Shown here piece by piece: positions 3,203-37,666 of a stretch of 39,925 bases of DNA. A model generated the notes under the pieces. The model was given only the letters and a program-made list of their open reading frames with translations. It was not told the origin of the DNA and did not search any database. The stretch spans positions 1 through 39,925 of the forward strand of contig MGVZ01000028.1 of assembly GCA_001800745.1 (NCBI GenBank). Direction: 5' to 3'. The DNA comes from Euryarchaeota archaeon RBG_16_67_27 (GTDB lineage Archaea > Thermoplasmatota > Thermoplasmata > RBG-16-68-12). Position 1 is the stretch's first letter. The number at the start of each line of letters is the position of its first letter. Made by a program: the position numbers and the translations under genes.

Positions 3203-5182
3203 TCACTGCGGCACCGCGGACCCCGGCTTCTCCGAGGTGACCTTCGGGACGAGGGCCGCGAGCTTGCTGATCAGCCCCGATTTCTTCGGGCCCACGAGGA
3301 CGTGATCGAGGACCTCGCTCAGCGTGTCCACGGGGACGATCTCGATGCGCCCGCGGTACTTGTCCTCCAGGAGCACGTCCCGGAGGTTCGGGCGCGGGAT
3401 GATCACCTTCCGGATCCCCATCTCCGCCGCGGCCTCGATCTTCGCCGTGATGCCGCCGACGGGGAGGACCTGCCCCCGGACGCTCAGGCTGCCCGTCATC
3501 GCGACGCTCTGGTCCACGGGGACCTCCTCGAGCGCGCTGATCACCGCCGTGGCGACGGAGATCGACGCGCTGTCCCCCTCCGTGCCCTCCCGGGATCCGA
3601 CGAACTGGACGTGGATGTCGTGGTTGGAGACGTCCTCGCCCGTGTACTTCTTGATCAGGGCGGCGACGTTCTCCACCGCTTCCTTCGCGATCTCCCCGAG
3701 CCGACCCGTCGCGATGATCCTGCCGCCCTGTTTCGTCTGGGCGGGCGTGACCTCCGCGGCGATCGGCAGGATGATCCCGGAGAACTCGGCCATCGAGTTG
3801 TCCCCGACGAGCACCGCGAGCCCGTTGACCATGCCGACGATCGTGCCCGTCGTCTCGTACATCTGGTACTCCTTGCCGCGCTCGATCATGCGGTCTGCGA
3901 CCTGCTGCTCGAGGGACCGCGCGATCCGCTTCCCGGCGAGGACGTGCTTCGCGAGGACGAGGGGCGCACCCTCTTCCTGGGCGATGTCCCCCGCGACCCG
4001 GATCAGGCCTCCGAGCTCGCGGAGACGGAGGGTCAGCTGGCCTCGCCGGCCCGACCGGCGCTGGGCCTCCCGCAGGATCTCGACGACCGCGCTCCGGTCG
4101 AAGTGGGGGATCTTCTTGTCCTTCGAGACCTCCTGCGCGACGAACCGGACGAGCTTCATCCGGTTGTCGTCCGTGTCGAACATCGTGCTCTTCATGTAGA
4201 TCTCGTAGCCGTACCCGCGGATCCGCGAGCGCAGGGCGGGGTGCATGCCCTGGACGGCGTCGAGGTTCCCCGCGGCGACGAGGACGAAGTCGCACGGGAC
4301 GGCCTCCGTCTTGACCATCGCGCCGCTCGACCGCTCGCTCTGCCCGACGATGGAGAACTTCTTCTCCTGCATCGCCGTCAGGAGGGACTGCTGGCTCTCC
4401 ATCCGGAGAACGTTGATCTCGTCGACGAACAGGACGCCCTTGTGCGCCTTGTGGATCGCGCCCGGCTCCACCCGCTCGTGTGCGGGGGTCTCGAGTCCGC
4501 CGCTCTGGAACGGGTCGTGCTTCACGTCGCCGAGGAGGGCGCCTGCGTGGCTCCCCGTCGCGTCGATGAACGGGGGCATCTCGTCCACGGTGTGGGTGAC
4601 CAGGAGCTTGGGGACCATGAGGTTCTCCTGGCGGTGCCCCGTGTACCGCGTCGCGATGTAGATGATCGCGGCGACGAGGATCCCGAAGAGGATCGTCGTG
4701 GGCTCGAACATCTTCGTGTTCGGGTCCCCGGACCAGTTGTACGACAGGATCACGGAGAGACCGATGATGAAGAAGATGATCGTCATCATCATGGAGGCCT
4801 TCTGCTCCCGGCGCTGCATCGCCTCCGCCTTCTGCGCGTTCACGATCTCGCGCCCCTTCGCCGCGGGCACGACGCGGATCTTGGGCTCGTTCGGGTCCTC
4901 CGGGTTGTGGTAGACGACGATGTCCTGGAGCTCGTCGCGGGGCAGGAGCTCGGTCATCGACCGGGCGAGCATGGACTTCCCCGTGCCCGGGTCGCCGATC
5001 AGCATGACGTGCCGCTTCTGCTCCGAGGCCTTCCGGATGACCTCGACCGCGTGCTCTTGGCCGATGACATGGTCGACGAGCCGCTCGGGGATCTTGACCT
5101 CCGCCGTGCTCCGGAAGTCGAGCTTCTCGATCCACGAGTCCACGGGCGAGTGCTCTTCAGAATCCTTCGCGCTTCCCGCCAT
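3203..5182 (-). CDS. lonB: membrane-anchored ATP-dependent protease LonB
   Basis: Archaeal LonB unfolds and degrades proteins at the inner face of the membrane. From the ATG at 5182 the protein has 659 residues. It shows Walker A GDPGTGKS (about 63-70), two hydrophobic segments inserted in the AAA+ module (about 129-147 and 162-180, the LonB hallmark), Walker B VLFVDEINVL, and a C-terminal protease domain. The catalytic Ser lies in EGDSASIS and the catalytic Lys in GGITAKIEAA. The ORF track uses a GTG at 5200; the ATG at 5182 follows AGGGAG more closely, and either is possible. All expected active-site elements are present. First gene of a unit with the small Cys protein and nadM. Confidence 0.95.
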   Translation of the reverse strand: MAGSAKDSEEHSPVDSWIEKLDFRSTAEVKIPERLVDHVIGQEHAVEVIRKASEQKRHVMLIGDPGTGKSMLARSMTELLPRDELQDIVVYHNPEDPNEPKIRVVPAAKGREIVNAQKAEAMQRREQKASMMMTIIFFIIGLSVILSYNWSGDPNTKMFEPTTILFGILVAAIIYIATRYTGHRQENLMVPKLLVTHTVDEMPPFIDATGSHAGALLGDVKHDPFQSGGLETPAHERVEPGAIHKAHKGVLFVDEINVLRMESQQSLLTAMQEKKFSIVGQSERSSGAMVKTEAVPCDFVLVAAGNLDAVQGMHPALRSRIRGYGYEIYMKSTMFDTDDNRMKLVRFVAQEVSKDKKIPHFDRSAVVEILREAQRRSGRRGQLTLRLRELGGLIRVAGDIAQEEGAPLVLAKHVLAGKRIARSLEQQVADRMIERGKEYQMYETTGTIVGMVNGLAVLVGDNSMAEFSGIILPIAAEVTPAQTKQGGRIIATGRLGEIAKEAVENVAALIKKYTGEDVSNHDIHVQFVGSREGTEGDSASISVATAVISALEEVPVDQSVAMTGSLSVRGQVLPVGGITAKIEAAAEMGIRKVIIPRPNLRDVLLEDKYRGRIEIVPVDTLSEVLDHVLVGPKKSGLISKLAALVPKVTSEKPGSAVPQ

Positions 5183-5238
5183 CTCCCTAACCGGTCCCAC
5201 CAGAAGGGTTCGACTCGGTCGAATAGACAGCGGACCTA

Positions 5239-5246
5239 CTTAATAA
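5239..5246 (-). promoter_or_regulatory. TATA box of lonB
   Basis: On the minus strand AAAGTTATTAAGTAGG is a clear A/T island. A start site about 27 nt downstream (near 5216) would give a leader of roughly 17 nt to the GTG or 35 nt to the ATG of lonB. Confidence 0.5.
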
Positions 5247-5308
5247 CTTTGACCCCCTGATTAAAAATGAAATGGGTCGGAGTCGTTACTCGATCCGGGA
5301 GTCCGCGC

Positions 5309-5842
5309 TCAGGCGGCGCGGGACGCGATCAGCTCCGCGAGCTTCGCGAACGCATCCTCGACGTTCTCGCCGGTCTTCGCGGAGGTCAGGAGGAACGTCG
5401 CGCCGTGGGAGTCCGCGAGGGACTTCACGTCCCCGTCGGACACGACGCGCTCGTCCTTGAGGTCGACCTTGTTCGCGAGGAGCTCGACCGGGATGTTCCC
5501 CGTGACCTTCACGACGGCCGCGATCCACTCCTCGAGGTCCGTGAGGGTCTCCTTCCGCGTGACGTCGCACACGGCGAGGACGCCCTGGGCCCCGTGGAAG
5601 TACGCCTCCTTGAGGAGCTCCCGGAAGCCCTTCTCGCCCATGATGTCCCAGATCGTCATGTCCACGTCGACGGCCGCGCCGTTGCCCTGGATCACGATCT
5701 CCTTCTTCGAGACCTTCGCCCCGAGGGTCGAGATGTAGCGGTCCTCGAACTGGTCGTGGACGAACCGCCGGATCAGGCACGTCTTCCCGACCGCGCCTTC
5801 CCCGACGAGGCAGATCTTGACCTTCATCTTCTGGCGATCCAT
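5309..5842 (-). CDS. Ras/Rab-like small GTPase (array member 1)
   Basis: A 177-residue complete small G domain. The P-loop is GEGAVGKT (14-21), the switch I Thr is in YISTLG (T39), G3 is WDIMGE (65-70), G4 is NKVD (124-127) and G5 is TSAK (153-156). The WDxxG motif and Y-x-x-T-x-G switch place it in the Ras/Rab branch rather than with Era or TrmE. The residue matching Ras Gln61 is Glu (E70). There is no C-terminal cysteine for a lipid anchor. It is more similar by eye to the third array member (shared KKEI, FRELLKEAYF, LANKVDL) than to the second. GGTG 5 nt before the ATG supports the start. The cellular role is unknown; no GAP, GEF or Roadblock gene is seen nearby. Confidence 0.9.
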   Translation of the reverse strand: MDRQKMKVKICLVGEGAVGKTCLIRRFVHDQFEDRYISTLGAKVSKKEIVIQGNGAAVDVDMTIWDIMGEKGFRELLKEAYFHGAQGVLAVCDVTRKETLTDLEEWIAAVVKVTGNIPVELLANKVDLKDERVVSDGDVKSLADSHGATFLLTSAKTGENVEDAFAKLAELIASRAA

Positions 5843-5883
5843 CCCGCACCTCAGTCCGATTCTTTCCGACGCAGGAAGGTCAG

Positions 5884-5891
5884 ATTATAAA
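5884..5891 (-). promoter_or_regulatory. TATA box of small GTPase 1
   Basis: The minus strand reads CTCCTTTATAATCTGA, a near-consensus archaeal TATA box 45 nt before the ATG at 5842. It leaves a short leader that contains GAGGTGCGGG. The element lies within the 103-nt gap after GTPase 2, so this gene can be transcribed independently. Confidence 0.6.
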
Positions 5892-5945
5892 GGAGTTCCT
5901 TCGCGGTTATCTCCATGGATAACACGCGTCCTCCGGGAGGGTCGT

Positions 5946-6500
5946 TCACGCGTCGGGCCGGGAGGCGATCGCGCTCGCGATTGCGAGGAACGCCTCGTCC
6001 ACGCCTCGTCCCGTCCGCGCCGACGTCAGGTAGTGAGGGGCCTGGTGCATCGCGCCGAGCCGCGCGAGCTCCTCCTCGGTCACGACGATGCGCTCCGCGA
6101 GGTCGCTCTTGTTCCCGAGGAAGACGATTGGCACGCTCCCGATCTGCTTGCGGACCATCGTGACCCAGCTGTTCAGGTCGTAGAACGTATCCTTCCGGGT
6201 GACGTCGCACACGGCGAGGACGGCCTGCGCGCCCTCGAAGTACGCGTCGCGGAGGAGGGAGCGGAAGCCCTTCTCGCCCATGATGTCCCAGACCATCATG
6301 TCGAGGGTCGCGGGCGCGCCCTTCCACACGACGTCCGTCGTCTTCTTCGTGACCTTCGTGCCCACGGTCGCGACGTAGCGGTCGTCGAAGTTGTCCGTCA
6401 CGAACCGCTTGATCAGGGAGGTCTTCCCGACGGCGACGTCGCCGACGAGGCAGATCTTCGCCTTGACGTGCTTCGGCGTCGCCTCGACGGCGGTCATCAT
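5946..6500 (-). CDS. Ras/Rab-like small GTPase (array member 2)
   Basis: A 184-residue G domain from the ATG at 6500. The P-loop is GDVAVGKT (20-27), the switch I Thr is in YVATVG (T45), G3 is WDIMGE (71-76), G4 is NKSD (130-133) and G5 is TSAR. It is the most divergent of the three: it has LGNKSDL rather than LANKVDL, a Trp in the central strand (VVWKGAP) and a ten-residue N-terminal tail. Glu again stands at the Ras Gln61 position. No lipid-anchor cysteine is present. The ORF track starts at a GTG at 6506, but the TATA box at 6523-6530 puts transcription initiation at about 6500, suggesting leaderless translation from one of the two adjacent ATGs (6500 or 6497). Confidence 0.9.
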   Translation of the reverse strand: MMTAVEATPKHVKAKICLVGDVAVGKTSLIKRFVTDNFDDRYVATVGTKVTKKTTDVVWKGAPATLDMMVWDIMGEKGFRSLLRDAYFEGAQAVLAVCDVTRKDTFYDLNSWVTMVRKQIGSVPIVFLGNKSDLAERIVVTEEELARLGAMHQAPHYLTSARTGRGVDEAFLAIASAIASRPDA

Positions 6501-6522
6501 CGCCACCCGAGGGACCGTTTAC

Positions 6523-6530
6523 TGTAATAA
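6523..6530 (-). promoter_or_regulatory. TATA box of small GTPase 2
   Basis: GGCTTATTACAGTAAAC on the minus strand, centred about 27 nt before the ATG at 6500. The spacing predicts a leaderless or nearly leaderless mRNA. Confidence 0.55.
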
Positions 6531-6564
6531 GCCGTGACCCCGCGAGTATCGGCGATGATAATTC

Positions 6565-7128
6565 TCACTCTTCCGGCACGACCTTCCTCGCGTAGCGCTC
6601 CTTCACGATCCGTTCCCCGAGGGACTGGAACGCGAGCTCGACGTTCACGCCGGACTTCGCGGAGGTGAAGTGGAACGAGCTGTCGTACGCGCGGGCGGCC
6701 TGGATCAGCTCCTCCTCGCCGAGCTCCGGTTTCTCGAGGTCGACCTTGTTCGCGAGGAACTCGATCGGGATCCGGCCTGTGACGGAGTACACGCCCTCGA
6801 TCCAATCGTCGAGGTCGTCGAGCGTGCGCTTCCGTGTGACGTCGCAGACGGCGAGGATCCCCTTCGCGCCGTAGAAGTACGCCTCCTTGAGGAGCTCGCG
6901 GAAGCCCTTCTGCCCCATGATGTCCCAGATCGTCATGTCGATCCGGAGCTCCCCGGTCCCGTCCGTGGCCTGGGTCAGGATCTCTTTCTTCGACACCTTC
7001 GTTCCGAGGGTCTGGATGTATTTGTCGTCGAAGTCATCCAGGACGAACCGGCGGATGAGGGACGTCTTGCCGACCGCGGCCTCGCCCACCAGGCAGACCT
7101 TCATCTTCATCCGCTTGAATTCCACCAT
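6565..7128 (-). CDS. Ras/Rab-like small GTPase (array member 3)
   Basis: A 187-residue G domain. The P-loop is GEAAVGKT (15-22), the switch I Thr is in YIQTLG (T40), G3 is WDIMGQ (68-73), G4 is NKVD (127-130) and G5 is TSAK. Unlike its two neighbours it keeps Gln at the Ras Gln61 position, so it may hydrolyse GTP differently. A short insertion (QATDGTGE) before the WDIMG strand is partly shared with member 1. The C terminus is charged (KVVPEE) with no cysteine. The ATG at 7128 has little Shine-Dalgarno sequence; an ATG six codons in (7110) follows GGTGG and is an alternative. It is the gene nearest the ribosomal operon and is read away from it. Confidence 0.9.
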   Translation of the reverse strand: MVEFKRMKMKVCLVGEAAVGKTSLIRRFVLDDFDDKYIQTLGTKVSKKEILTQATDGTGELRIDMTIWDIMGQKGFRELLKEAYFYGAKGILAVCDVTRKRTLDDLDDWIEGVYSVTGRIPIEFLANKVDLEKPELGEEELIQAARAYDSSFHFTSAKSGVNVELAFQSLGERIVKERYARKVVPEE

Positions 7129-7335
7129 GGGTTCTCAGCCAACGCGGGTCATAGCCGGCGATTTTCCCTTAAACGTTGTGGGAATGTTATCAGGCACGAT
7201 ACTCCGTGCCTCGCCGGGGCGCGGAGCGCCGCTCCGTCGGCGCACACGCACGCTCGCGGGCGCCGTGATCCCCCGGAGGGAATTCCCCGTGGCCGCCGTG
7301 CCGCGAGCCGCCGGACCGCCGCCGCGGGATGCGCT

Positions 7336-7561: not shown

Positions 7562-8563
7562 ATGCCGAAGGAGCACCGACCCCGCCACGGTTCGATGGGC
7601 TTCTCGCCCAGGAAGCGCAGCGAGAGCCCGGTCCCGCACTTCTCGAGCTGGCCCGAGCACGACGGCACGCCGAAGGTCCAGGGCTTCGCCGGGTACAAGG
7701 CGGGCATGACCCACGCGATGATCGTCGACTACCGGCCGACGTCCACGACGTCGGGCCAGGAGGTCCAGGTCCCCGTGACCGTCGTCGAGGTCCCCCCGAT
7801 GAAGGTCGCGGGCGTCCGGGTCTACCGGCAAACCCACGAGGGACTCAAGGCGGTCGCGGAGGTGTGGGCCGCGAAGCTCGACAGCGCGCTCCGCCGTGTC
7901 TTCCCGATCCCGAAGGACTACGAGCCCGATGCCGCGTGGAAGGAGGTCGACGCGGTCACGATCGACGAGGTCCGTCTCATCACGTACACACAGCCCGCCC
8001 TCGTGACCGGCGTGCCGAAGACGAAGCCGGAGCTCATGGAGAACCGGGTCGGCGGCGGCACGATCGAGGACCGCCTCGCGTACGCGAGGGCGCTCATCGG
8101 GAGGGACATCGCGGTCACGGACTTCTGCAAGGAAGGGTCCATGGTCGACGTCGCGGCGATCACGAAGGGGAAGGGCTGGCAGGGCCACCACACCCGGTGG
8201 GGCACGAAGCTCCTGAGCCACAAGAACTCGAAGCACCGCCGGAACATCGGCACCCTCGGGAACTTCCAGCCCGGCTACGTGCGCCCGACGGTCCCGCAGG
8301 GCGGCCAGACGGGGTACCACCAGCGCACGGAGTACAACAAGCGGGTCCTCAAGGTCGGCGCGAACGGCGAGGAGGTCACCACGGACGGAGGCTTCCTTCA
8401 CTACGGCCAGGTCCGGAACCCGTACATCCTTCTCCACGGCTCGATCCCCGGCCCCGCGAAGCGGCTGATCCGCCTCCGGGACTCGACCCGCGGTGGCTAC
8501 GTGAAGCTCGAGAAGCCGCCGGAGATCACGTATATCTCCCGCGAATCGAAGCAGGGGGCCTGA
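7562..8563 (+). CDS. rpl3: ribosomal protein uL3
   Basis: 333 residues, the usual archaeal length. It opens with a basic segment (MPKEHRPRHGSMGFSPRKRS) and contains the family region GKGWQGHHTRWGTKL with its conserved His, followed by the HKNSKHRRNIGTLG and PTVPQGGQTGYHQRTEYN segments that reach towards the peptidyl-transferase centre. The ATG is preceded by AGGAGG at 8 nt, the strongest ribosome-binding site of the cluster, as fits the first gene. L3 is a primary 23S rRNA binder and begins the 25-gene ribosomal block. Confidence 0.97.
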   Translation: MPKEHRPRHGSMGFSPRKRSESPVPHFSSWPEHDGTPKVQGFAGYKAGMTHAMIVDYRPTSTTSGQEVQVPVTVVEVPPMKVAGVRVYRQTHEGLKAVAEVWAAKLDSALRRVFPIPKDYEPDAAWKEVDAVTIDEVRLITYTQPALVTGVPKTKPELMENRVGGGTIEDRLAYARALIGRDIAVTDFCKEGSMVDVAAITKGKGWQGHHTRWGTKLLSHKNSKHRRNIGTLGNFQPGYVRPTVPQGGQTGYHQRTEYNKRVLKVGANGEEVTTDGGFLHYGQVRNPYILLHGSIPGPAKRLIRLRDSTRGGYVKLEKPPEITYISRESKQGA

Positions 8564-28272: not shown

Positions 28273-31200
28273 ATGATCAAGCAGGCGGAAGACGAGTACG
28301 TCCCCGTAGAGCTCGAGAAGCAGGTCCGGGACTTCTGGACCCGCGCGAAGGTGTACGCGAAGACCGTCGCCGCGCGATCGAAGGCGGAGGACTTCTACTT
28401 CGTCGACGGGCCGCCGTACACGACCGGGGCGATTCATCTCGGCCAGGTCCTGAACAAGACGATCAAGGACTGCGTCGTGCGCTGGCACCGGATGCGCGGG
28501 TACAACGTCCGCGACCAGCCGGGCTACGACATGCACGGCCTCCCGATCGAGGTCCAGGTCGAGAAGACGCTGGGGATCACGAACAAGAAGGAGATCGAGG
28601 ACTTCGGGATCGAGAAGTTCGTGAACACGTGCCGGGACTTCTCCCTCGACCTCCTGAGGAAGATGAACGGCCAGTTCGCCGAGCTCGGGGTGTGGCTCGA
28701 CTGGGACCGGCCGTACATGACGATCCGGAACGAGTACATCGAGGCCGCGTGGTGGACTTTCAAACGCGCGCACGAGCGCGGCCTCCTCTACGAGGCGCTC
28801 CGATCCCTCCAGTGGTGCAGCCGGTGCGAGACCGCGCTCGCGGAGGCGGAGGTCGAGTACTCCGACGAGACGGATCCGTCGATCTACGTCAAGTTCCCCC
28901 TCACGGACCGACCGGACGAGTCCCTCCTGATCTGGACGACGACCCCGTGGACCCTGCCCGCGAACATGGCGATCGCGGTCCATCCCGATCTCACGTACGC
29001 GAAGGTCAAGCTCACCCGCGGCGGAAAGTCGGAGCACCTGTGGATCCTCGAGTCCGTCGTCCCCGAGGTCATGGCCCTCGCGGGTCTCACCGCGTTCGAG
29101 GTCGTTGAGCGCAAGGCGGGCAAGGATCTCGTCGGGCTCGAGTACGCCCACCCCCTCGCCCCGAAGATCCCGTTCCAGGCCTCCGTGAAGGGGGAATGGG
29201 TGCACCGCGTCCTGCCGTCCGGCTTCGTCGAGGCGGAGCGCACGGGGCTCGTCCACACGGCCCCGGGGCACGGCCCCGAGGATTTCGACCTCGGCCAGGC
29301 GCACGGCCTCACGCCGTTCTCCCCCGTGGACGAACGCGGGCGGTTCACCGCGGAGGCGGGCGACTACGTCGGGCGGCAGGTCCGCGAGGCGAACTTCCTG
29401 ATCACGGACGACCTCAAGGGGTTCCACGCACTGTTCGTGGATGACGACATCGTCCACTCGTACGGGCACTGCTGGCGCTGCAAGTCGCCCGTGATCTACC
29501 GCGCGACGACGCAGTGGTTCCTCAAGGTCACCGACGTCAAGCCGAAGATGATCGAGGAGATCCGCCGGATCTCCTGGTTCCCGGACTGGGCGGGGTCCGC
29601 GCGCCAGCTCGACTGGACCCAGAACCTCCGGGACTGGTGCCTCTCCCGCCAGCGGTACTGGGGCATCCCCCTCCCGATCTGGCGGTGCTCCTCGTGCCGC
29701 GCTTGGACGGTCCTCGGGTCCGCGGCGGACCTCCGCCGCGCGAAGGGTTACGTCGAAGGCATGGACCTCCACCGGCCCTGGATCGATGCCGTCGTCCTGC
29801 CCTGCTCTGCGTGCGGGGGTGAGATGGCGCGGATCAAGGACATCCTCGATGTATGGTTCGACAGCGGGGTCGCGAGTTGGGCGAGCCTCGGCTATCCGGC
29901 GCGGGAGGACGAGTTCAAGCGGTGGTGGCCGACGGACTGGATCGTCGAGGGGCCCGACCAGACCCGGGGCTGGTTCAACTCCCAGCTCGCCGCGGGGGTC
30001 GTCGCGTTCGATCGCGCACCCTACCAGGCCGTCCTGATGCACGGCTGGGTAAACGGGCCCGACGGGCGCCAGATGCACAAGTCCCTCGGGAACTTCATCG
30101 AACCCCGCGTCGTGATCGACAAGTTCGGCGTGGATGCGCTCCGGTTCTACGTCCTCGCGGTGAACCCCCCCTGGGACGACATCACGTTCCAGGAGGAGGG
30201 CGTCCGCACCGCGCAGCGCTCGCTCAACATCCTGTGGAACGTGCTCCGGTTCGCGACGACGTACATGCTCCTCGACCGGTACGACCCCGCGCGGGACACC
30301 CTCCCGAGCCTCGAGGGACACCTGCGCCCGGAGGACCGTTGGCTCCTGTCCCGGCTCGAGGGGCTTCGCGCGACCGTGGACCGGGAGATGCAGGCGTACC
30401 AGCTCCACCGCGCGTTCCGGGCGGTCGAGTCGTTCGTGCTCGATGACCTGTCCCGGTGGTACGTGAAGCTCGTCCGCGAGCGGACGTGGGTCGAGTCGTC
30501 GGACCGTTCGAAGACCGCCGCGTATGCGGTGCTCTTCGAGGCCCTCGTGACGACCGCGGCCCTGCTCGCCCCCGCCGCGCCGTACATCGCCGAGGCGATC
30601 TACCAGCGGCTCGACGGTCGGAAGCTGTCCGTCCACATGCTCGACTGGCCGGCCCCCTTCGAGGGGCGTTCCGCCCCGGGGCTCGAGACCTCGATGGCCG
30701 TCGTCCAGGAGCTCGTCGAGGTCGTCGCGAAGGAGCGGCAGAAGGGCGGGCGCAAGCTCCGCTGGCCCGTCCGGCTCATCGCGCTCAAGGGCGCGACGGA
30801 GGGCGCGGCGAGGGCGCTCACCGATCTCCGGGAGATCTTCGTCCAGCAGGCGAACGCGAAGGAGTTCGTCCTCCTGAAGGCCCACGAGGAGTTCCCCGGG
30901 ATGGCGCTCGTCCTGAGGCCGGACGCGGGCGTGATCGGGAAGGCGTACCGGGCCCTCCTCCCGAAGATCGCGATGGTCCTCGAGTCCCGGAGCGCGGAGG
31001 AGATCAAGAAGGCGCTCGACAAGGGCGAATACAAGCTCGGGATCGACGGGCAGATCATCACGATCGAGAAGTCGATGGTCGCTTTCGGCCGGAAGATGCC
31101 CGAGGATGTCGCGATCGTCCCGACGCCCCATGGCGAACTCTACGTGGACATGCGGATCACGCCGGAGATCGAGAGGGAGGGGTACGCCCGGGAGATCGTC

Positions 31201-32421
31201 CGCCGCGTCCAGCAGATGCGCAAGGAGATCAAGATGGACGTCGACGACTTCGTCGCGACGACGGTGAAGGCCGGCCGCGAGCTCGCGGAGGCGGTGGAGG
31301 CCCAGAAGGACCTCATCGCGCGGGAGACGCGGTCGCGGACCCTCGTCCTCACGGACAAGGCCGTGGAGTCCGAGTACGTCGTCGAGTGGAACGACGTCGA
31401 GGGCCAGACCGTCACGATCGGCATCGTGCCCCTGCACATGGCGGAGGCACTCCGGGAGTTCACACGGATCGACCGGGTGGGGCCGCGGCAGGCGATGGCC
31501 CTCTTCGACGCAGGGTACAAGGGCGTCGCCGCCCTGCGCGCGGCGACGCGGCAGGAGCTCTCCGCCGTCGAGGGGCTCGCGCCCGCGGATGTCGACCGGA
31601 TCCTCGCCGCCGCGGCGGCGTCCGCGGAGGCTGGGCTCGCGTGCCCGGTGTGCGAGGTGCCTCTCTCCCCGGGGACCCGGCGCTGCCCGCGCTGCGGCGA
31701 GCCGACCACCACGGAGGCGACGGCGTGCCCGCGCTGCGGCTCCGCGGTCGGCCCGGGCGCCGACGCGTGCGCGGTCTGCGGTTTTGTGATCGCGAAGGAG
31801 CCCGCCCACGGTCCGTCCCGCGCGCCCTGCGTCGCGTGCGGCGAACCGATCCCGATCGGGACGGACCGCTGTCCGTCGTGCGGCGCCCCGCAGGCCCCGG
31901 AGAAGGCGACCGGGGCCCCGAAGGTGATCACCCCCGCGGTCGCGGTCGAACTCCGCCCCTCGTCGACGTACCTCGTGAAGGAGGAGCATCCGGAGGAGGC
32001 GTACCGCCTCTTCGTCGCGGCCCTCGCGGCTGGGAAGAAGGGGCTGTGCATCACTCGCGTGTACCCGCAGAAGGTCCGGGAGAAGTACGGCCTCCTCGAC
32101 CTCCCCGTGCTCTGGCTGAGCAACGTCGGCAAGGAGGACGCCGTCCGCCCGAAGGATCTCGAGAAGCTCTCCCTGTCCATCGAGCAGTTCCTTGCGCGGG
32201 AGAAGGGGATCGTCCTGCTCGACGGGCTCGAGTACCTGATCACGAACAACAACTTCATCACCGTCCTCCGGCTCGTCCAGTCGATCCGGGACCAGGTCGC
32301 GATCAACGCCGCGATCCTCCTGTTCTCCGTGAACCCGTCCACGCTCGACGGGCACCAGCTGACCCTGCTCGAGCGCGAGGTCGACCGGGTGATCAGCGCG
32401 GGCGCGGATCGAACTCCTTGA
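28273..32421 (+). CDS. ileS: isoleucyl-tRNA synthetase fused to HhH, zinc ribbons and DUF835-like domain
   Basis: 1382 residues in one open frame. Residues 1 to about 1055 are a complete class I IleRS: HLGQ of the HIGH motif at 55-58, editing-domain motifs TTTPWTLP and VHTAPGHGPED, DVWFDSG, and a KMSKS counterpart reading MHKSL (601-605), then the anticodon-binding domain. After this come a helix-hairpin-helix (about 1063-1115, RVGPRQAMALFDAGYKG), three zinc ribbons with six CxxC pairs (1124-1203), and a DUF835-like domain (about 1228-1382, ending in DGLEYLITNNNF and NPSTLDGHQLTLLERE). Normal IleRS lacks these last 330 residues. AAGGAGGGG precedes the ATG. The stop region overlaps the opposing regulator gene by 29 nt. 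Confidence 0.95.
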   Translation: MIKQAEDEYVPVELEKQVRDFWTRAKVYAKTVAARSKAEDFYFVDGPPYTTGAIHLGQVLNKTIKDCVVRWHRMRGYNVRDQPGYDMHGLPIEVQVEKTLGITNKKEIEDFGIEKFVNTCRDFSLDLLRKMNGQFAELGVWLDWDRPYMTIRNEYIEAAWWTFKRAHERGLLYEALRSLQWCSRCETALAEAEVEYSDETDPSIYVKFPLTDRPDESLLIWTTTPWTLPANMAIAVHPDLTYAKVKLTRGGKSEHLWILESVVPEVMALAGLTAFEVVERKAGKDLVGLEYAHPLAPKIPFQASVKGEWVHRVLPSGFVEAERTGLVHTAPGHGPEDFDLGQAHGLTPFSPVDERGRFTAEAGDYVGRQVREANFLITDDLKGFHALFVDDDIVHSYGHCWRCKSPVIYRATTQWFLKVTDVKPKMIEEIRRISWFPDWAGSARQLDWTQNLRDWCLSRQRYWGIPLPIWRCSSCRAWTVLGSAADLRRAKGYVEGMDLHRPWIDAVVLPCSACGGEMARIKDILDVWFDSGVASWASLGYPAREDEFKRWWPTDWIVEGPDQTRGWFNSQLAAGVVAFDRAPYQAVLMHGWVNGPDGRQMHKSLGNFIEPRVVIDKFGVDALRFYVLAVNPPWDDITFQEEGVRTAQRSLNILWNVLRFATTYMLLDRYDPARDTLPSLEGHLRPEDRWLLSRLEGLRATVDREMQAYQLHRAFRAVESFVLDDLSRWYVKLVRERTWVESSDRSKTAAYAVLFEALVTTAALLAPAAPYIAEAIYQRLDGRKLSVHMLDWPAPFEGRSAPGLETSMAVVQELVEVVAKERQKGGRKLRWPVRLIALKGATEGAARALTDLREIFVQQANAKEFVLLKAHEEFPGMALVLRPDAGVIGKAYRALLPKIAMVLESRSAEEIKKALDKGEYKLGIDGQIITIEKSMVAFGRKMPEDVAIVPTPHGELYVDMRITPEIEREGYAREIVRRVQQMRKEIKMDVDDFVATTVKAGRELAEAVEAQKDLIARETRSRTLVLTDKAVESEYVVEWNDVEGQTVTIGIVPLHMAEALREFTRIDRVGPRQAMALFDAGYKGVAALRAATRQELSAVEGLAPADVDRILAAAAASAEAGLACPVCEVPLSPGTRRCPRCGEPTTTEATACPRCGSAVGPGADACAVCGFVIAKEPAHGPSRAPCVACGEPIPIGTDRCPSCGAPQAPEKATGAPKVITPAVAVELRPSSTYLVKEEHPEEAYRLFVAALAAGKKGLCITRVYPQKVREKYGLLDLPVLWLSNVGKEDAVRPKDLEKLSLSIEQFLAREKGIVLLDGLEYLITNNNFITVLRLVQSIRDQVAINAAILLFSVNPSTLDGHQLTLLEREVDRVISAGADRTP

Positions 32422-36483: not shown

Positions 36484-36511
36484 CGCCCCGGGCCGGCGGT
36501 ATCCCCCCGGG

Positions 36512-36518
36512 GGATAAA
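36512..36518 (-). promoter_or_regulatory. TATA box of the kinase-AcnX operon
   Basis: TACCCTTTATCCCCCGG on the minus strand, centred about 32 nt before the ATG at 36483. It shares a 163-bp divergent region with pdxS. Confidence 0.5.
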
Positions 36519-36646: not shown

Positions 36647-37666
36647 ATGCCTCTCGACCTCGACCTGAGCCGCCTTCGCTTCGGGACGGAGCTCCTCAAG
36701 CGTGGCTTCGCGAAGATGCAGAAGGGCGGCGTGATCATGGACGTCACGAACGCGGAGCAGGCCGCCGTCGCCGAGGAGGCCGGCGCCGTCGCGGTCATGG
36801 CGCTGGAGCGCGTCCCTGCGGACATCCGCGCGACCGGAGGCGTCGCGCGCATGGCGGACCCGATCAAGGTCCAGGAAATCATGGACGCGGTCACGATCCC
36901 CGTGATGGCGAAATGCCGCATCGGACACGAGGCGGAGGCGAAGGCGCTCGAGTCCCTCGGGGTCGACATGATCGACGAGTCGGAGGTCCTCACACCCGCG
37001 GACCCGTTCTTCCACGTGAACAAGCGCGGGTTCAGCGTGCCCTTCGTCTGCGGCTGCCGGAACCTGGGGGAGGCGGCCCGCCGGATCTGGGAGGGTGCGG
37101 CGATGATCCGCACGAAAGGGGAGGCGGGCACGGGCGACGTGATCGAGGCCGTGCGGCACGTGCGCCTCGTGAACCGGGCGATCGCCGAGCTCGAGGGATT
37201 CGACCGGGATCGCCTGTACGCGGTCGCGACGAAGTACGCGGAGAGCTACACGGTCCTCTTGAAGGAGATCCGGTCGACGATGGGCCTCGAGGCGACGGTG
37301 AACGAGGCCGATGTGATCTTCGCGGGGTCGAACCTCGACGTCATCTCGGAGGGGGTCTTCCAGATCCTCACGGAGATCAAGAAGATCCAGCGCCTCCCCG
37401 TCGTGAACTTTGCGGCGGGCGGCCTAGCGACCCCCGCGGACGCCGCGCTGATGATGATCATGGGATGCGACGGCGTGTTCGTCGGGTCCGGGATTTTCAA
37501 GGCCGAGAACCCGGAGGCCCGGGGGCGCGCGATCGTGGACGCCGTCGCGCACTTCGACGACCCCGCGGTCGTCGCCGACGTCTCGAAGGGGATTGGCCTC
37601 GCGATGAAGGGTTTGGACGCGAAGGCGCTGCCTATCGAGGCCCGCTTGCAGGAGCGCGGCTGGTAA
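36647..37666 (+). CDS. pdxS: pyridoxal 5'-phosphate synthase, PdxS subunit
   Basis: 339 residues, a TIM barrel that makes PLP from ribose 5-phosphate, glyceraldehyde 3-phosphate and ammonia. Conserved residues are visible: Asp32 in [10 protein letters not shown], Lys89 in VMAKCRIGH, and Lys157 in [19 protein letters not shown], plus the phosphate loop [16 protein letters not shown]. Ammonia normally comes from the glutaminase PdxT, which is not in the window. The last 35 bases overlap the end of the opposing NOG1 gene. Confidence 0.96.

Follow-up and report, generated by a model that had tools for sequence, protein, structure and literature searches.

Our analysis points to multi-copy Rab-like GTPases, accompanied by a family of transmembrane proteins with longin-like tails, in a phylum outside the Asgard archaea for which only single Rab-like genes have been described. 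Multi-copy Rab-like GTPases with longin or roadblock partners are treated as a hallmark of the Asgard archaea and of the road to eukaryotic membrane traffic. The window analysed here is a stretch of 39,925 nucleotides (contig MGVZ01000028.1) of the genome of Euryarchaeota archaeon RBG_16_67_27, a soil archaeon of the phylum Thermoplasmatota. Three intact Ras-superfamily GTPase genes lie in it as an array (5309-7128, minus strand), between lonB and a divergent ribosomal operon that begins with uL3 at 7562. Their coordinates and those of their control elements are given in Table 1. Neighbouring genes were called by codon usage, as GC-rich DNA yields shadow ORFs.

Table 1. Genes and putative control elements of the GTPase array and of lonB, in window coordinates.
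Feature	Position	Strand	Description
lonB	3203..5200	-	archaeal membrane-anchored Lon protease; TIGR00764 E 5e-271; directly downstream of array
TATA-like box, lonB	5238..5247	-	GTTATTAAGT; without operator
GTPase member 1	5309..5842	-	177 aa; last array gene, adjoining lonB; PF00071 E 5e-40
TATA-like box, member 1	5884..5892	-	CTTTATAAT; kept in relatives
Operator, member 1	5907..5922		perfect inverted repeat TTATC-CATGGA-GATAA
GTPase member 2	5946..6500	-	184 aa from ATG 6500; PF00071 E 1e-34; coding score
TATA-like box, member 2	6523..6531	-	CTTATTACA; weaker; kept in relatives
Operator, member 2	6546..6561		TTATC-ATCGCC-GATAC
GTPase member 3	6565..7128	-	187 aa; first array gene; PF00071 E 9e-31
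TATA-like box, member 3	7167..7175	-	CGTTTAAGG; kept in relatives
Operator, member 3	7186..7202		(G)TATC-GTGCCT-GATAA

The original prediction, made from the sequence alone, described three consecutive Rab-like small GTPases of 177-187 residues with all five G motifs, and the open reading frames, the Pfam Ras profile and the motifs agree with it. The profile (PF00071) matches all three ORFs with E values that exclude chance. The start of member 2 is uncertain, and a GTG at 6506 is also possible, giving 186 aa. Each member has the features that define the Ras superfamily: its only G domain is about 165-190 aa long and carries the motifs G1 GxxxxGKT, G2 Thr in YxxTxG, G3 WDIMG, G4 NKxDL and G5 (T)SA(K/R). 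At the Gln61 position there is a Glu in members 1 and 2 (WDIMGEKGF in member 1) and a Gln in member 3, and this residue is invariant among the orthologues of each (22, 20 and 30 for members 1, 2 and 3, respectively). A residue fixed in this way suggests that the array members are functionally distinct, and the GTP cycling of members 1 and 2 probably differs from that of member 3. Members 1 and 3 are, as had been noted, closer to each other (59% identity) than either is to member 2 (53% for members 1 and 2, 48% for members 2 and 3), with weak tree support for grouping them to the exclusion of member 2 (88/79 in a 43-row tree). The proposal that the array has a duplication history is borne out.

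The AlphaFold model of member 1 is a standard G domain (pLDDT 88). Compared to the PDB with Foldseek, its top folds are Rab1 and Rab8 (TM about 0.8), and a Thorarchaeota Rab is among the listed matches. A PDB search using a 68-member profile of the family found the Thorarchaeota Rab 7EZB first (E 2e-37), followed by Rab1 and Rab21. The fold is therefore Rab-like, but the RabF1 motif, the prenylation Cys and a placement among the Rabs are all missing. The segment after switch I reads LGAKV, VGTKV and LGTKV in the three members, and the eukaryotic RabF1 motif IG(V/I)DF (IGVDF in Rab1) is absent from each of them. A Cys within the last 12 residues that could be prenylated occurs in 0 of 168 family ORFs, which extends to the whole family the earlier remark that no lipid-anchor cysteine is visible.

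The GTPases of Thermoplasmatota form a single clade, with support of 99/98 in a 102-row tree and 100/97 in the 43-row tree, and in both trees this clade falls outside MglA, Arf, Ran, Ras, Rac, the eukaryotic Rabs and Thor-Rab. A position inside MglA had been named as an outcome that would speak against the original prediction, and the array GTPases are found in their own clade instead. The trees contain two bacterial MglA sequences only. Full-length self matches in the PDB confirmed the reference sequences of MglA, Arf1, Ran, HRas and RagA; those of Rab1A, Rab7A and Rac1 entered the trees without such a match. AU tests on the sister group of the clade rejected no candidate (Thor-Rab, p 0.56; Rabs plus Thor-Rab, p 0.43; MglA, p 0.26). 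The original prediction also gave Ras-like arrays in archaea a bearing on how the small GTPases of eukaryotes arose. As the AU tests reject neither Thor-Rab nor the Rabs as sister, the trees do not support this part of the prediction.

The source genome (1.55 Mb, 79 contigs, 75% complete) has at least 14 GTPases of this family, and between 9 and 20 are found in each of the 22 genomes of the archaeon's own family (22/22). The bin that gave the highest count, 20, has 7% contamination, and this number may be inflated. Over the phylum, the GTPases were found in 39 of 293 genomes, as a single copy in some and as many copies in others; copy counts in this survey were taken from the best 11 candidates per genome and are thus at least the numbers given. 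The array itself is not particular to one assembly, which had been the other outcome held against the prediction. The order GTPase3-GTPase2-GTPase1-lonB beside uL3 is kept in named relatives, and in more distant Thermoplasmatota (nine named loci) four GTPases are followed by lonB, so that the synteny of array and lonB extends to about 28 named loci. Orthologues of member 3 are present in every array-bearing lineage sampled, and they group together across these lineages in a 10-row clade (99/98 in the 102-row tree).

Some paralogues have features of their own. In those on contigs C6 and C16 the C-terminus is extended by a conserved helical stretch of about 100 aa, and that on contig C22 has a possible winged-helix (helix-turn-helix-like) tail; Pfam gave nothing significant for these two extensions or the tail. 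On contig C57 (L131:4351-9462) a GTPase adjoins several KaiC-like ATPase genes. The RBG_19FT_COMBO_69_17 MAG (MGWD01) contains two LonB-GTPase arrays, one with 99.6-100% and the other with about 81% DNA identity to the window, which indicates that this bin probably mixes two species and that its GTPase count is inflated.

At three other loci of the source genome (contigs C47, C6 and C17), genes for membrane proteins adjoin the GTPase genes. These proteins have the same layout: the N-terminus is signal-like, an outside part follows, one TM-like segment lies about 140-155 residues before the C-terminal end, and the C-terminal domain is conserved. With two of the source-genome tails as queries, this domain was found again beside GTPases in other families of the phylum (six loci) and beside tandem GTPases in named relatives. 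A profile search counted 10 longin-like domain proteins in the source genome, as against the 14 GTPases, and 11-17 such domains in each of eight relatives. The roughly 10 proteins of the source genome are spread over nine contigs; most of them span the membrane once, many have a very large ectodomain (300-1500 aa), and the family is uncharacterised in Pfam.

The AlphaFold model of the tail from one relative (locus L086, pLDDT 78) has the element order b1-b2-a1-b3-b4-b5-a2-a3, which is that of a longin. The roadblock fold begins with a helix, unlike the longin fold. The top named PDB matches by Foldseek are AP-2 sigma (TM 0.63), zeta-COP, AP-1 sigma, Ragulator subunits and MglB, all of them from the longin/roadblock superfamily. 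In sequence comparisons, Pfam Robl_LC7 stays below threshold (best E 0.026, 5 of 18 members), the INTU/FUZ longin profiles reach E values of about 0.1 with one member each, and a PDB sequence-profile search with the longin-like profile returned noise only. The fold call thus rests on AlphaFold and Foldseek, and we assign a longin fold to the cytoplasmic tail with moderate confidence. The absence of a Roadblock partner, which had been noted from the sequence, is correct within the window but not genome-wide, since besides the longin-like proteins the source genome has 3 Roadblock (PF03259) proteins. One of these, on contig C53 (L136:5472-6229), adjoins a V4R-domain protein, an arrangement typical of GTPase regulators; there is no GTPase near this pair.

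The association of the two families becomes apparent when it is followed over the 293 genomes of the phylum. The longin domain was found in 34 of them; the GTPase is present as well in 31 of these, 3 have the domain only, and 8 further genomes have the GTPase only. Put differently, the domain is present in 31/39 genomes with the GTPase vs 3/254 others (Fisher p 5e-31, a value that ignores shared ancestry). The copy numbers of the two also correlate (Spearman 0.74, with the GTPases counted from the best 11 candidates per genome). There are 16 domain hits no farther than 1.5 kb from a GTPase vs 1.5 expected, and with estimated ORF limits 17 GTPase-longin pairs are direct neighbours, spread over 13 genomes from nine families. 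Most longin copies (110/127) do not adjoin a GTPase. The examples that went into the domain profile were GTPase-adjacent ones, with the first two queries taken from the source genome only. No longin gene lies beside the array of the window itself, where the conserved neighbour is lonB.

A further connection between GTPases and longin genes comes from the promoters. Each array gene has its own TATA-like box, as had been predicted, and the boxes are conserved. Just upstream of each box there is an inverted repeat, TTATC-N6-GATAA or a one-base variant of it, which is also kept in relatives. The pattern TATC-N5-9-GATA occurs at 4 sites in the window, 3 of which are the array operators, while 0.18 are expected by shuffling, and the whole source genome has only about 9-10 distinct TATC-N6-8-GATAA sites. 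The same repeat before each box does not support the idea that the genes are regulated separately; from these sites, the three genes probably have their own promoters and one common regulator. In the source genome the operator also precedes two longin genes, one for a 1440-aa membrane protein (contig C60) and the other for a 147-aa longin-like protein (contig C37). Other copies precede a KaiC-like ATPase gene (contig C13) and a sugar-nucleotide transferase-glmS pair (contig C63), so the regulon would be broader than GTPases and longins, and one site lies inside a gene (contig C27). Perfect-palindrome operators are present in 22/22 genomes of the family, and a reversed control pattern gave almost no matches. 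Nine genomes compared by position have 29 perfect sites, and for at least 14 of these the gene directly downstream is an array GTPase or codes for a longin tail. Elsewhere in the window, a perfect palindrome (TATCCCCCCGGGGGATA, 36500-36516) lies just upstream of a pdxS-like gene at 36647.

We propose that the array genes encode members of a Rab-like family, expanded in several Thermoplasmatota lineages, that work as on/off switches driven by GTP. Their place of action is most likely the cytoplasmic membrane, where they would do without a lipid anchor. The cytoplasmic longin tails of the single-pass proteins would replace the anchor, serving as docking and regulatory platforms with a GEF- or GAP-like role. 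An ectodomain could sense something, upon which its longin tail would recruit and switch individual GTPases. Each array gene would be transcribed from its own promoter under one operator-binding regulator, with at least two longin genes under the same control, and through this common regulator switches and platforms would be made together. Physical binding of GTPase and longin domain, GEF or GAP activity, sensing and the pairing of array members with particular longin proteins are all inferred steps. For the core of this model, in which longin-tail membrane proteins recruit and switch Rab-like GTPases under a common operator regulator, we see about even chances. We hold somewhat less firmly the wider proposal that Thermoplasmatota evolved or kept a receptor-coupled GTPase signalling system, in which single-pass longin-tail receptors switch matching Rab-like GTPases at the cell membrane without an anchor. 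It is similarly tentative whether such a system could be regarded as a prokaryotic counterpart, outside the Asgard archaea, of eukaryotic longin-Rab regulation.

In one alternative, the targets of the array GTPases would be the membrane-bound LonB protease or its substrates, and the longin link would apply to other paralogues only. The gene lonB follows the array in the conserved loci, including the distant ones with four GTPases, and hydropathy places two TM-like segments in LonB (residues 135-153 and 164-182). In addition, a GTPase of genome G227 adjoins a longin gene, and lonB lies about 1.1 kb upstream. However, the TATA box that precedes lonB is a separate one and comes without the array operator, one relative (locus L038) has the array with no lonB found within its 12.5-kb locus, and the related genome G282 has a GTPase-longin pair without lonB nearby. 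We had considered the G227 arrangement as a link between lonB and such pairs and rejected it when it was not reproduced in this sister genome. Overall we consider control of LonB unlikely. The neighbour on the other side, the uL3 operon, raises the possibility of ribosome-linked GTPases of the Era/Der type, and NCBIfam Era/Der models do match, although weakly and far under the cut-off. Against this, Ras is the best match by a wide margin, the proteins have a single G domain and no KH domain, the array is divergent from the operon, the four-GTPase arrays have no uL3 within the sampled flanks, and 11 paralogues lie elsewhere in unrelated gene contexts. This explanation can practically be set aside.

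Two known types of prokaryotic small GTPase could also account for the family. MglA-type polarity GTPases, which in Myxococcus work with a Roadblock GAP, are brought to mind by the three Roadblock proteins of the source genome and by the relation of the longin fold to MglB in the Foldseek list. Here though G3 is WDIMG with the canonical Asp and not the TVPGQ of MglA, the family lies outside MglA in both trees (with two bacterial MglA sequences, and an AU p of 0.26 for MglA as sister), and no Roadblock gene of the source genome shares a contig with a GTPase. PDB retrieval also differs, as M. xanthus MglA finds only MglA and Arf/Sar chains where the Thermoplasmatota family finds Rabs. This makes an MglA-type role highly improbable. 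In haloarchaea, the small GTPase ArvA drives vesicle formation (PMC10927574), and a comparable vesicle-forming role could be suggested for the array, given that ArvA is the sole archaeal small GTPase with a membrane phenotype in the literature surveyed and that both belong to the Ras superfamily. But its partner ArvB/OapB (PF09846) has 0 matches in the source genome (75% complete) with a positive Haloferax control, and in Pfam ArvA is closest to Arf (PMC10927574) while the array GTPases are closest to Ras. We find a vesicle-forming role quite improbable. The platform model with longin-tail receptors remains our preferred reading.

Compared to known systems, this model shares with MglA/MglB the pairing of a small GTPase with a protein of the roadblock/longin superfamily, but G3 differs, and MglB is a soluble roadblock protein where here a tail of longin topology is part of a membrane protein with an ectodomain. 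The gene logic of a membrane sensor, a roadblock-type protein and a small GTPase is also that of the actinobacterial conservons (CvnA-D), in which however the roadblock protein is separate from the sensor, the sensor is histidine-kinase-like and the GTPase is of MglA type. Longin or roadblock domains likewise serve as small-GTPase platforms or exchange factors in DENN, Mon1-Ccz1, TRAPP and Ragulator, but these are soluble multi-subunit complexes and not single-pass receptors.

The Asgard archaea are known to have Rab, Rag, roadblock and longin proteins (PMC10933270). Thor-Rab (7EZB; PMC10933270), the top PDB match to the family profile, has the same fold and also has no prenylation site, but its G3 is WDLAGQ instead of WDIMG(E/Q) and the two form separate clades in both trees. 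Closer to our case, Surkont and Pereira-Leal (2016, PMC4915359) described a single Rab-like protein in a Thermoplasmatales archaeon and another single one in Aciduliprofundum; both are long-branched and do not cluster with Lokiarchaeum. The GTPases described here are similar to these in being single-domain, without a C-terminal Cys and on long branches outside the Asgard archaea. They differ in number and setting, with 9-20 per genome, arrays and a membrane longin partner family as against one per genome in two Thermoplasmata, and in the RabF1-like segment, which is T(L/V)G(A/T)KV and not TIGVDF. Groups 1 and 2 of the Rup family of Wuichet and Sogaard-Andersen (2014, PMC4316618) are also non-MglA prokaryotic Ras-like GTPases. 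Among the features in common, group 1 lacks the G3 Gln and group 2 is multi-copy in archaea. Group 2 is described only from Crenarchaeota and without conserved neighbours, and the Rup family text does not mention Thermoplasma. In the open-access literature, the coverage of which is incomplete, we found no earlier description of the GTPase expansion, the transmembrane longin partners or the operator.

If the model is true, a system comparable to that of the Asgard archaea, and independently organised, would exist in a non-Asgard phylum, and the pairing of GTPase and longin would be older or more easily evolved than thought. It would also offer a simple two-component system for how longin domains handle Rab-like switches. 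The array, its longin partners and the operator provide a concrete list of genes for this. Apart from the array, the window contains a class I aminoacyl-tRNA synthetase of 1382 aa (28273-32421) with a C-terminal extension, unusual for a tRNA synthetase, that carries a helix-hairpin-helix, zinc ribbons and DUF835.
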